A stretch of 64,000 nt of DNA from a virus. Positions 276-7,657 of this stretch are shown here, piece by piece. The notes beneath the pieces were generated by a model. That model did not search any database. It saw nothing but the letters and a program-made list of their open reading frames with translations, and had not been told where the DNA came from. The number at the start of each line of letters is the position of its first letter. The first letter of the stretch is position 1. Both the position numbers and the translations under genes were made by a program. The DNA lies in the IMG/VR virus record IMGVR_UViG_3300046820_002290, positions 1 to 64,000 of that record. The stretch is one strand, 5' to 3'.

Positions 276-2222
276 ATGGAAACTTCTGTCGACCTAATCA
301 AACAACTGCAGTCTGACTACCTTTCGTACTCAGTGGCTGTGCTCGTTGGACGAGCTATCCCTTCTTTGACAGACGGTCTAAAGCCAGCCCAACGCCGTGT
401 TCTCACGGCCATGAAGTGGCTTAGCCTTAAGCCCGACGGCAAATATATGAAGAGTGCCAGGGTCGAAGGTGAGACCATGGGCAAATTGCATCCCCATGGA
501 GGAGCCTATGGTGTTATGGTAACCTTGGCCGCACCCTGGAACAACAACCTGCCGCTTATCGACGGTCAAGGCAACTGGGGTTCCTCCGTTGACGGTGCCG
601 CAGCCAGTCGTTACACAGAAGCAAAGCTAACAGCATTCAGCTGGGATGCGTTGCTAGACGACTCCGACACTTGGCAACTTGCAGACAATTATGACGGCTC
701 CTTGAAAGAGCCAATCGAACTCAATGCTAAAGTGCCCACCGTGCTGCTAAATGGGCAAGACGGCATCGGGGTTGGCTTCGCAACTAAAATCCCTCCGCAC
801 TCTCTCCGAGACATTTGCGATGCTGTAACCAAGGGATCCCAACTAACACCATCATTCCCCACAGGTTGTGACATTGTTGCCGATGAGGGTCTAACCTCGT
901 ACCAACAAACGGGAGCAGGCACCTTGAGGTTGCGAGCAAGATGCGAGGTTACCAACGAAGAAACAGGTAAGAGGGCGAAGCAAACACTAACATTCACCAA
1001 CCTACCAACAGGCACTAACCCTGAGAAAATCGGTCAACAAATTAAGGATGCACTTGACAAAGGCAATGTCACCGCAATCACAGCAGTCAGCGATCAGTCT
1101 GATCTCACGGGCGACCGTATTGCAATTACTGCAAAGTCCGGTGCAGACCTCACTCTGCTTCAACGACAACTCTATCACTATACCGACCTGGACACTAAAT
1201 ATTCGGCACGGTTGCTGGTTATTGACGGGTTGCGACCAGTTGAAATGTCGCCAGGTCAACTTGTTGCGCGTTGGCAGACATGGCGACTGGCTAGGTTGGG
1301 CGACAAGTTTGCCTATGAGCTAGATGCCTCCGAGGCACGATTAGAGATTGTACGAGGATACCTTAAGGCAATCGACAAGATTGATGCCGTCATCAAGATT
1401 ATCCGAGCTGCTTCGACTCCCAAAGAGGCACTTATCGAACTTGTTTCGAACAGATCGCTAAAGTTTACGAGGGACCAGGCAAAAGCAATCCTTGAGATGC
1501 GACTTCGTGCGCTAACTAACCTTGACACTACCGAGTTACTGACTGAAGAAACCGATCTTATCTCCAAGATTGCCGAACTTGAAGAACTTATCAAAAACGA
1601 CAAGGCTCGGAAGGCATACATGGTCAAGGAAATCAAGGCAATCGGTGTAAGGTACGGAGAGAAACGCCGCAGCGAACTGATTGATCCGCCGGAAGGCTTA
1701 ACCCTTGAAAAGGGATCCTCTCGGCAAGCGGCACCCGCTACGGCGAAGCCAAAGTTCCTCAAGATTGACCTGAAACGAGGAACTGTTGAACAAGCAAAGG
1801 GTCCCCGTGGCTGCCTTATTGTCGACCGCGCTGAAAAGGTTATCACATTGACTGCTGACGGCACTCTAAGAAAAATCCCTGCAAACTACAAGGGTCCCCT
1901 TGGAGAAGGCTTCTGCGAAGTGCTGCTGGCGAAGAAAGAAAATGACTTGTCTGGCAAAAAATTTCTAATGGTTTTCACAATGGAAGACCAACTCAAAGCG
2001 ATGGCTATTGCCGGAGAAGATCTTACCAAAGTGACTTCAAAGGGGAAACAAGCTTTACCTGAAGGGGCAACCATAGTCTACTTTGGCGAAGGAACCTATG
2101 TGGTCCCCTGGGTTTCAACCCGTAAGAAAAAAGTAGAAGTGTCTCCCACCTCGACCAAACAAGGCAAGCCCGGTGCAAAGGGTACCAAGATCGCTACAAT
2201 CTCTGAAATTTCGATTAACTGA
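276..2222 (+). CDS. Type II DNA topoisomerase, subunit A (GyrA/ParC/T4 gp52-like)
   Basis: This is the breakage-reunion subunit of a type II topoisomerase, which cuts both strands and passes a second duplex to relieve replication stress. The N-terminal GyrA signature is clear (SYAVLVGRAIP-like start, LTDGLKPAQRRVL at about 31-43, GETMGKLHPHG at about 65-75). The active-site Arg-Tyr pair is R112-Y113 in AAASRYTE. At 648 aa it is longer than T4 gp52 (about 440 aa) but shorter than bacterial GyrA. After a Lys/Ala/Pro linker near residue 490 it keeps only a shortened C-terminal beta-pinwheel-like segment (KIDLKRGT, TLTADGTLRKIP). The ATPase subunit is not in the window. The start is the first ATG after the preceding stop. 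Confidence 0.93.
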   Translation: METSVDLIKQLQSDYLSYSVAVLVGRAIPSLTDGLKPAQRRVLTAMKWLSLKPDGKYMKSARVEGETMGKLHPHGGAYGVMVTLAAPWNNNLPLIDGQGNWGSSVDGAAASRYTEAKLTAFSWDALLDDSDTWQLADNYDGSLKEPIELNAKVPTVLLNGQDGIGVGFATKIPPHSLRDICDAVTKGSQLTPSFPTGCDIVADEGLTSYQQTGAGTLRLRARCEVTNEETGKRAKQTLTFTNLPTGTNPEKIGQQIKDALDKGNVTAITAVSDQSDLTGDRIAITAKSGADLTLLQRQLYHYTDLDTKYSARLLVIDGLRPVEMSPGQLVARWQTWRLARLGDKFAYELDASEARLEIVRGYLKAIDKIDAVIKIIRAASTPKEALIELVSNRSLKFTRDQAKAILEMRLRALTNLDTTELLTEETDLISKIAELEELIKNDKARKAYMVKEIKAIGVRYGEKRRSELIDPPEGLTLEKGSSRQAAPATAKPKFLKIDLKRGTVEQAKGPRGCLIVDRAEKVITLTADGTLRKIPANYKGPLGEGFCEVLLAKKENDLSGKKFLMVFTMEDQLKAMAIAGEDLTKVTSKGKQALPEGATIVYFGEGTYVVPWVSTRKKKVEVSPTSTKQGKPGAKGTKIATISEISIN

Positions 2223-4870: not shown

Positions 4871-7657
4871 ATGCAAAACCTAACGTCTATGGCAGAACGC
4901 TTAACAGATCTCGGTTATCCGGTGCTTGGGGAAGAACTCCATCGCCGGATTTTCGGTAAGGAGACTCCTAAGGAAATGTCTCGACTTGCCAAGCAAAGAG
5001 CACAGAAACTCTTGAAAGAATTCGATATTCCAACTCCCGTCGATTACCCAGACCACCTATACGATGGGCCATTACCCCTGCCCGAGCTAAAGGCAGAAAC
5101 ACTTGGTGCACACTTTGAAGAAATTGCCAATGAACAGATTGGCGAATATAAAAAATATGCCGATGAATTTGCTGCCTGCGAGCTGGCAGAAATTCCCCCT
5201 ACCAAAGAGCTTAAGTTCAACCCGGGGTGGACACGTTACACGAAGGTCCAAAACAAATGGAAAACAGAATCTGTGCCATATCCTTTGGAAAAAGCATTCA
5301 CGTACGATACTGAAACTTTTGTGCATGGCGGCGCATTTCCGATTATTGGCACTGCGTTATCTGCCAAGGCGGCTTACATTTGGTTGGCTTCTGAGCTTAT
5401 TGATCCTTCTTTGCCTGAGGATAAGTGGGACCAACACTCCCTGATTCCGATTGGCGAGAACCGTTTCGTAGTTGGCCACAATATCTCGTATGACCGCGTA
5501 CGTGCTCGCGAAGGTTACACCTTAGACCGAACCAAACCTGAAAACTTTTACTTTGACACACTATCTGCACACATTGGCGTATCTGGCCTTGCCAGTGGCC
5601 AGCGCTGGTTATATGTTCTGGCTGGTAAGGACCCTGAGGATCTCACTGATGAAGAAAAACGAAAACTAAGATATGCCCCTAAATGGCTAGACGAAGGTTC
5701 TACTAATTCTCTTGTAGCCACCTACAACTTCCACGTCTACGAGGTTAGGAAATTCTTCGGTGATAACGCTCAACCTTTAGGTCAAGGTGACAAAGCAGTC
5801 CGAGACATCTTCGTAAAAGCCACGCATCTAAGCCAAATCCATCAAATGCTCACAGAGGCAGTTGACTATGCAATCAAAGACGCCTTGTACACAGCGGAGC
5901 TGTTCCAAGCCCTTTGGCCAAAATACTTAGACGCCACCCCCTCACCCGTTGCTCTTTGCGGACACTATCATCTTAACGGATCCATCATTCCTCTTGTCCC
6001 CGACTGGGAAGAATGGATTCAAGGAGTGGAGCGCACATTCGAGGAGCATAATAATGAGATGACTCAAATTTGCAAAGACTTGGTCTGGAAGTGTTATGAG
6101 GAATGGCGGGAAATTTACCAGGATGACCCGGAAAAAGCTGAGCGCTGGGTGTCTCGTGACCCTTGGATCTCCCAACTTAACTGGGAAGTAAAAACCGTCA
6201 AAGGCAAGTATGCCCACATTCCTCACTGGGTGCGACCTTTTATTAAAGACCCTAATGAACATATTGGAGTCAAATCAAACCTTTCTCATCTCCTTCTGAA
6301 ACTCACTTGGGAGGGATCTCCCATGATCTTCACAAAAGACCAAGGTTGGTGCTACCATAACGAAGAGGGCGAACTGACAAAAATCCCACACCCGAAAGGA
6401 GCCGGGGACAATGTGGGCGGTGTCCTAAGCAAAGACTTCGTGGACGACATGAAAGTAGGTCGCTTGAACTCGGATCTCCCCGAAGCCAAACGAGCTCTGG
6501 AAATTGCTAACGCCGTTAGCTACTGGACTTCGGTCCGTAAGCGGGTAATGGACCGCATCTTCCTGCCGGCCCACAACCCCCACGGTCAAGACGCCTTAGT
6601 AACTCTCCCCGAAATTCTTTGCCATGGTACCGTAACCCGACGTACCGTAGAATCGCTCATGGTGACAATGTGCTCCACGAAAAACTGGCGCATTGGCACC
6701 GAATTAAAAACACGAGTGAAAGCCCCGGATGGCTGGAAAATCGTTGGAGCTGACTTTGATGGTCAAGAAATGCAGATCGCTTCGATCTATTCCGATAAGT
6801 GGGAAGGCGGTCATGTTGGCTGTTCCCCGTTTGGTTACAATGTGCTTTCCGGCTCAAAAGAGGCGGGGACTGATCCCCATAGTGCTCTTGCTAAGTTGGC
6901 TGGCGTGGACCGAGACACGGCCAAAATCGCCGGTTTCGCCGTTCTCTATGGCGCGGGAGTCCGAGCCGTGCAAACCTACATCCGACGGAAGTACCCCGAG
7001 AAATCCCCAACCGAAGTGAAAAACTTTGCCTACCGAATTCTGGAAGGCAAGAAAGGAAAGCTGCGAAATGGTTTGTACGAGGGGGGATCTGACAGCGGAT
7101 GCTTCAACTTCATGGAAGAGATTGCGATGCGGTCTCGAGTCCCTCAACTTCCTTGCTTAGGAACCAAAATCTCTACCGCAATGCGCCCCGCTGCTGTCGG
7201 TGATGACTTTAAGACCGGTCGAGTAAACTGGACCATCCAGTCTTCTGGCGCCGAAATTCTTAGTATCATGCTTACATCAGTTCACTGGCTCGCGGCCGAA
7301 TATAAGATTCCTGCCAGGTTTGTGCTAAGTATCCATGACGAAATTTGGTTTATGACGCCTGAGCGCTATGCCGAACAATTTGCGGTGCTGTTTCAGATCG
7401 CACATATGTACACATGGTCTTTGTTCCACTCGGCAGTAGGGATCCCAGATCTCCCTCTGTCCCGAGCTTACTTCTCCTCCGTAGCAATTGACGAGCGTTT
7501 ACGTAAGTCCCCTAAAGAAAAAACCGTGACCCTTTCTAACCCAAAGGGTGAATCAGAGGGCTTTGGTGTCGAGTACTCTATGTATGAGCTCGCTGAGATC
7601 GGAGCTATCAACAAACTAACTAACCGCTATTCCGCCATTCAAAAAGGAATCATCTGA
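4871..7657 (+). CDS. Family A DNA polymerase resembling mitochondrial DNA polymerase gamma
   Basis: Replicative DNA polymerase, 928 aa, with an N-terminal 3'-5' exonuclease and a C-terminal family A polymerase. Exo I is DTET at D146/E148. Exo II-like VVGHNISYDR and FDTLSAHIGVSGLASGQR follow. Motif A is GADFDGQE (D628, E633), motif B is RDTAKIAGFAVLYGAG, and motif C is SIHDEIWF (H822-D823-E824). As I remember human POLG, these blocks and also VNWTIQSSGAEIL, FFSAVDID-like FSSVAIDERLRK and the final NPKGE stretch line up with POLG rather than with Pol I or T7 gp5. The gene ends in TGATGA, overlapping the next start by one base. An alternative label would be generic phage PolA, but the gamma-specific stretches argue against it. 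Confidence 0.95.
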   Translation: MQNLTSMAERLTDLGYPVLGEELHRRIFGKETPKEMSRLAKQRAQKLLKEFDIPTPVDYPDHLYDGPLPLPELKAETLGAHFEEIANEQIGEYKKYADEFAACELAEIPPTKELKFNPGWTRYTKVQNKWKTESVPYPLEKAFTYDTETFVHGGAFPIIGTALSAKAAYIWLASELIDPSLPEDKWDQHSLIPIGENRFVVGHNISYDRVRAREGYTLDRTKPENFYFDTLSAHIGVSGLASGQRWLYVLAGKDPEDLTDEEKRKLRYAPKWLDEGSTNSLVATYNFHVYEVRKFFGDNAQPLGQGDKAVRDIFVKATHLSQIHQMLTEAVDYAIKDALYTAELFQALWPKYLDATPSPVALCGHYHLNGSIIPLVPDWEEWIQGVERTFEEHNNEMTQICKDLVWKCYEEWREIYQDDPEKAERWVSRDPWISQLNWEVKTVKGKYAHIPHWVRPFIKDPNEHIGVKSNLSHLLLKLTWEGSPMIFTKDQGWCYHNEEGELTKIPHPKGAGDNVGGVLSKDFVDDMKVGRLNSDLPEAKRALEIANAVSYWTSVRKRVMDRIFLPAHNPHGQDALVTLPEILCHGTVTRRTVESLMVTMCSTKNWRIGTELKTRVKAPDGWKIVGADFDGQEMQIASIYSDKWEGGHVGCSPFGYNVLSGSKEAGTDPHSALAKLAGVDRDTAKIAGFAVLYGAGVRAVQTYIRRKYPEKSPTEVKNFAYRILEGKKGKLRNGLYEGGSDSGCFNFMEEIAMRSRVPQLPCLGTKISTAMRPAAVGDDFKTGRVNWTIQSSGAEILSIMLTSVHWLAAEYKIPARFVLSIHDEIWFMTPERYAEQFAVLFQIAHMYTWSLFHSAVGIPDLPLSRAYFSSVAIDERLRKSPKEKTVTLSNPKGESEGFGVEYSMYELAEIGAINKLTNRYSAIQKGII

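Follow-up and report, generated by a model that had tools for sequence, protein, structure and literature searches.

A POLG-family DNA polymerase gene of the cyanophage S-CBWM1 type in an IMG/VR viral record

DNA polymerases of the POLG family have been described from several cyanophages. According to the paper on Microcystis phage Mic1 (2020; PMC7156551), they had been found earlier in A-HIS1/2 (2011), S-TIM5 (2012) and S-CBWM1 (2018), and a common ancestry of phage POLG with mitochondria was proposed there. A passage in PMC3914683 credits the idea of a cyanophage origin to Chan 2011. The division of phage POLG into enzymes with F and enzymes with Y at the position of human Y951 has also been noted before (PMC7156551). 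Of the mitochondrial enzymes, metazoan POLG is characterized by the accessory-interacting determinant (AID), which yeast and nematodes lack (PMC4419789), and a C-terminal extension of 279 residues is given for yeast Mip1 in a passage of PMC3303844.

The window analyzed here is a stretch of 64,000 nt (positions 1 to 64,000 of IMG/VR record IMGVR_UViG_3300046820_002290), and its own record is a fragment of 91,972 bases. It contains an intact gene for a POLG-type family A DNA polymerase of 928 aa on the plus strand (4871–7657), which begins with ATG and runs for 928 codons without interruption; the assignment is based on the open reading frame, Pfam and PHROG profiles, PDB searches, the predicted fold and phylogenetic trees. 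No match was obtained in an Rfam search of the window. A phmmer search against PDB chains placed yeast POLG at the top (E 1.5e-117), with human and mouse POLG at about 5e-107 (human 5.5e-107), and the first non-POLG polymerase was a PolI at E 0.023. For a profile of nine phage sequences, the corresponding values were 2.8e-199 for yeast POLG, about 1e-181 for mammalian POLG and 1e-13 for PolI. The protein matched the 'DNA mitochondrial polymerase exonuclease domain' (PF18136; E 8.9e-61, 205.9 bits, cut-off 26.7) and phrog_22619 'DNA polymerase' (E 2.5e-228). The general family A model PF00476 matched weakly (E 1.2e-10), and NCBIfam gave solely PolI-type matches, far below threshold. Together with the fold and the tree described below, the PDB E values and the PF18136 match confirm the claim of an earlier note on this DNA that the likeness to POLG goes beyond the catalytic motifs. 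The similarity to POLG is far greater than chance would give, and the gene product is firmly placed as a genuine member of the POLG family of DNA polymerases.

The stretches listed in that note align with human POLG, namely VVGHNISYDR with VVGHNVSFDR, FDTLSAHIGVSGLASGQR with LDTMSMHMAISGLSSFQR, VNWTIQSS with VNWVVQSS and SIHDE with SIHDE (window and human, respectively), whereas the match of the final NPKGE segment is weak. The resemblance was further said to run from end to end. This holds for yeast Mip1, to which the protein aligns in one continuous profile alignment (residues 5–900 against chain 13–950); for human POLG it holds with gaps at the extra blocks of the human enzyme.

A search of phage records gave twelve matches, eleven of them to cyanophages and the twelfth to a roseophage polymerase over a short length, and several of the matching records carry the annotation DNA polymerase gamma. 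Identity to the window protein was 58% for S-CBWM1, 37% for the S-TIM5 group, 32% for Mic1 and 29–32% for A-HIS1/2. POLG in cyanophages is thus already known: the gene of the S-TIM5 lineage, which the earlier note had mentioned, is published (PMC7156551), and that of A-HIS1/2 dates back to 2011. Within this family, the window gene belongs to the S-CBWM1 (Aokuangvirus-like) type, and its degree of similarity is average for phage POLG. The gene order is also the same as in S-CBWM1. In the window, a gene for DNA gyrase/topoisomerase IV subunit A (276–2222, plus strand; PF00521, E 1.1e-100; phrog_551) is followed by a few small genes, POLG and further small genes, and in S-CBWM1 by three genes and POLG.

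The mitochondrial-polymerase-type 3'-5' exonuclease domain PF18136 covers positions 5075–5926 (profile match 1.3e-62; residues 69–352 in hmmscan). The motif alignment placed Exo I at 5297–5326 (FTYDTETFVH, with D146 and E148 invariant among the aligned relatives), Exo II at 5465–5506 (FVVGHNISYDRVRA, D208) and Exo III at 5864–5896 (DYAIKDALYTA, Y333 and D337). Pol A was placed at 6740–6796 (IVGADFDGQEMQIASIYSD, catalytic D628), Pol B at 6905–6964 (VDRDTAKIAGFAVLYGAGVR, with R681, K685, F689 at the position of human Y951 and Y693 at that of Y955) and Pol C at 7316–7360 (RFVLSIHDEIWFMTP, catalytic D823), all on the plus strand. Every catalytic residue of Exo I–III and Pol A–C is kept in the alignment, and both polymerase and proofreading activity may be expected from the sequence. 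The residue at the Y951 position is F in the window protein, S-CBWM1 and A-HIS, and Y in S-TIM5 and Mic1. This position, F762 in PolI and Y526 in T7, governs the discrimination against dideoxynucleotides in family A polymerases. Because the window protein carries F here, stronger discrimination is predicted by analogy.

The comparison of structure models proposed in the earlier note returned a predicted POLG fold, spacer included. The AlphaFold2 model (pLDDT 85.5, pTM 0.85) resembles human POLG in its overall fold with a TM score of 0.82 over about 1000 columns. The top 36 fold matches in the PDB were all POLG (TM 0.70–0.83 by query length), as compared to at most 0.39 for the best other family A polymerase. 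The spacer is short (residues 448–502; 6212–6376, plus strand) and contains neither the metazoan AID block nor the second human insertion of ~120 residues. The extra blocks of human POLG amount to about 66 and about 120 residues in the spacer and about 45–50 in the polymerase domain, and human chain residues 468–533 and about 592–711 have no counterpart in the window protein in the alignment. We take the first of these segments to be about 502–567 in human numbering, which corresponds to the AID. As aligned, the window polymerase lacks the POLG2-docking block (AID). The POLG2-type domain PF03129 (HGTP_anticodon) was found neither in the window's own, incomplete record nor in four isolates and nine further viral contigs, and the control genomes were positive in 14 of 14 cases, which agrees with the earlier remark that no POLG2-like subunit is seen nearby.

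With neither an AID block in the enzyme nor a POLG2 in its relatives, the window polymerase is probably a single-subunit, Mip1-like replicase, the processivity of which would be achieved without a partner. One polypeptide would thus carry out both the copying of the phage genome and the 3'-5' proofreading, in the manner of Mip1 and without an accessory subunit. The window's own record is a fragment, and therefore a partner could sit in the missing part; the longer relatives speak against POLG2 as that partner, though an unrelated processivity factor would be compatible with them. The lack of a two-subunit design in the phage enzymes fits the view of POLG2 as a late animal addition.

The features of a T7-type replisome were not observed in the POLG phages. 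The polymerase falls outside the T7 clade, no T7-type RNA polymerase (PF00940) was found in the POLG phage records, in a search that was validated on T7 and in which no control genome was positive, and the DnaB_C helicase domain (PF03796) was not detected in these records. A protein of some 620–690 residues with PF19263 (DUF5906, phrog_25243) is present in 10 of the 13 POLG phage records, such as S-CBWM1 gp136 (L300 30671–32659), A-HIS1 p016 (L083 2828–4645) and the proteins of L303–L309. It is annotated as DNA primase in S-CBWM1 and A-HIS1 and carries Walker-type motifs, e.g. GEPGVGKT. A search of the window's own 91,972-base fragment gave no such protein. Its motifs suggest an SF3-like helicase, which makes this ATPase a candidate for the replicative helicase/primase partner of POLG. 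The window polymerase would then work alongside the DUF5906 ATPase/helicase that is present in most relatives.

Single scans of IMG/VR gave 75 close relatives of the window polymerase and 183 confirmed stretches for the wider POLG family, and no match was found in plasmids. One of the POLG genes is located on an unusually large viral contig (L267; 279,339 bases). The scan of 84,980 prokaryote genomes yielded POLG solely as two fragments (L225, L226) in a single MAG of an uncultured Microbacteriaceae, and a bacterial source of POLG was rejected on these grounds. In the same MAG there are psbA and several PolA genes, so that the two fragments are probably cyanophage DNA that was binned with it, along with other foreign DNA. 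Four of nine related IMG/VR records contain psbA, including L028 and L039 with POLG about 80% identical to that of the window, which supports cyanobacterial hosts for the POLG phage family. The window's own record gave no psbA match, and the host proposed for the window phage therefore rests on its relatives.

In the family A phylogeny with 14 diverse outgroup PolA sequences, phage POLG, including the window protein and the S-TIM5-type phages, and eukaryotic POLG formed one group (100/100) on a long branch apart from T7 and PolI, and the POLG clade was again recovered at 100/100 against other family A enzymes when the analysis was repeated with other rows. In principle, the protein could be a common phage family A polymerase of the T7 or PolI kind whose motifs bear a superficial likeness to POLG, as the general PolA motifs and the weak PF00476 match would allow. 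The PF18136 match (E 9e-61), the full separation of the POLG clade (100/100) from T7, T5-like, PolI, mycobacteriophage, crAss and cyanopodovirus enzymes and the fold (TM 0.82 against 0.39 or less) leave this reading with a negligible probability. The T7- or PolI-like identity is refuted by the tree and the fold, and the protein does not fall inside the ordinary phage or bacterial PolA clades, the placement that the earlier note had named as contrary to its claim. We consider it very likely that the gene encodes the replicative polymerase of an S-CBWM1-type cyanophage from a known POLG branch, which sequence and model suggest to be a single, Mip1-like polypeptide with proofreading. Repair is a frequent job of family A polymerases, which speaks for a repair or auxiliary enzyme in a phage whose genome is copied by the host replicase. 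That role is improbable, since each of 14 phage records gave POLG as its sole PF00476 match and thereby as its one family A polymerase, since in S-CBWM1 POLG is annotated along with a primase and a 5'-3' exonuclease but without any other full replicase, and since the proofreading domain is intact.

The window polymerase formed a clade with that of S-CBWM1 (100/100), and the phage POLG family comprises four deep lineages. Eukaryotes were represented by three sequences from two groups, rebuilt from PDB alignments and lacking some segments for human and mouse, and the halves of the Mic1 and L297 proteins were joined across the intron. Eukaryotic POLG was sister to Mic1 (100/99) in the tree with 14 outgroup PolA sequences. 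The Mic1 lineage and eukaryotes grouped at 97/94 after the Mic1-like contig L297 had been added and the longest outgroups dropped, and at 100/99 without an outgroup. The AU test rejected a sister relationship between the window clade and eukaryotes (p 4.8e-7). Identity to yeast and human POLG is 38–40% for the Mic1 type and 32–33% for the window, as compared to 41% between yeast and human. The phage lineage nearest mitochondria is the Mic1 type, not the lineage of the window. A nesting of mitochondrial POLG inside phage POLG is favoured, but not proven, because monophyly of all phage POLG was not quite rejected (AU p 0.088; 0.052 in the set with L297). It is possible, at somewhat less than an even chance, that animal and fungal mitochondrial POLG descends from a relative of the Mic1 lineage inside the cyanophage POLG radiation and that its replisome partners came from elsewhere. 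In that case, the mitochondrial replisome would be pieced together from different phage sources, with the window gene as an outlying relative. The same AU values, which at the 5% level allow a single phage clade with the eukaryotes outside it, and the small eukaryotic sample leave room for the opposite transfer, from eukaryotes to phages. We regard that direction as unlikely, given that the best trees put eukaryotic POLG within phage diversity, next to Mic1 or its lineage, that phage POLG is divided into four deep lineages and that prokaryote genomes yielded only the two MAG fragments. As for the link to the origin of mitochondrial replication drawn in the earlier note, the POLG membership stands, but the window gene adds little, because the link is published, the similarity of 32–33% is average and the Mic1 lineage is nearer.

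Interrupted POLG genes were observed in several relatives. In the Mic1 lineage, the gene is interrupted within motif A (GADVDS^QELW) in L081 (6836–7130), L238 (6779–7082), L239 (4285–5170), L297 (6828–7720) and L299, a position that is common to relatives 62% identical. The insert of L238, a close homologue of Mic1, scored as a group I intron in a narrow Rfam search (71 bits, E 3e-18 for RF00028). That of L239 contains a NUMOD4/HNH homing-endonuclease ORF, and a similar ORF was seen by eye in L297. A gathering-threshold Rfam search of whole split-gene loci gave no match, which does not equal absence because L238 was outside that set and the search filters vary with length. A DNA pattern for the motif A of Mic1 and eukaryotes was not matched because the intron breaks the motif in Mic1-type phages. 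Splits at two variable sites occur in other POLG genes and correspond to window residues about 500 in the spacer and 675–681 directly before motif B (L064 7238–7960; L058 8030–8950; L074; L075/L076). The inserts of L064 and L058 contain an HNH ORF (PF01844) and, by eye, an HNH-like ORF, respectively, with no group I intron match, and POLG is spread over three ORFs in L075/L076. The split genes may represent trans-acting split proteins, introns or misassembly. An in-frame insert of variable length, roughly 30–50 residues, is located between the GTDPH segment and motif B in L077 (S-CBWM1 gp77), L066, L082 and L083, in the same place as splits in other relatives.

The window gene adds one further member to a family already described, and the wider value lies in its setting: POLG occurs widely among cyanophage contigs, and the phages nearest mitochondria are of the Mic1 type. 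Compared with the known systems, the window polymerase shares the fold (TM 0.82) and all catalytic motifs with human and mouse POLG, and differs from the human enzyme, in which the AID block and a larger spacer bind POLG2, by having neither. Yeast Mip1 (PDB 9c51/9c52) aligns continuously over the exonuclease domain, the short spacer and the polymerase domain and likewise has no AID (PMC4419789), but differs by its C-terminal extension and its mitochondrial site of work. The DNA polymerase gamma of Mic1 (ORF85/86) is a POLG-family enzyme 32% identical to that of the window; it differs in being sister to eukaryotic POLG, with which, in the human enzyme, it has GADVDSQELW in common, and in that its gene is broken within motif A by an intron. 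The S-TIM5 polymerase aligns from end to end at 37% identity, but belongs to a separate, fully supported clade and has Y at the Y951 position. S-CBWM1 DNA polymerase gamma (gp77, ATW62761) is 58% identical over 99%, has gyrA upstream in the same gene order, shares the Pol B motif with F at the Y951 position and belongs to the same clade; ahead of its motif B, about 33 residues are inserted in frame, an insertion absent from the window protein.
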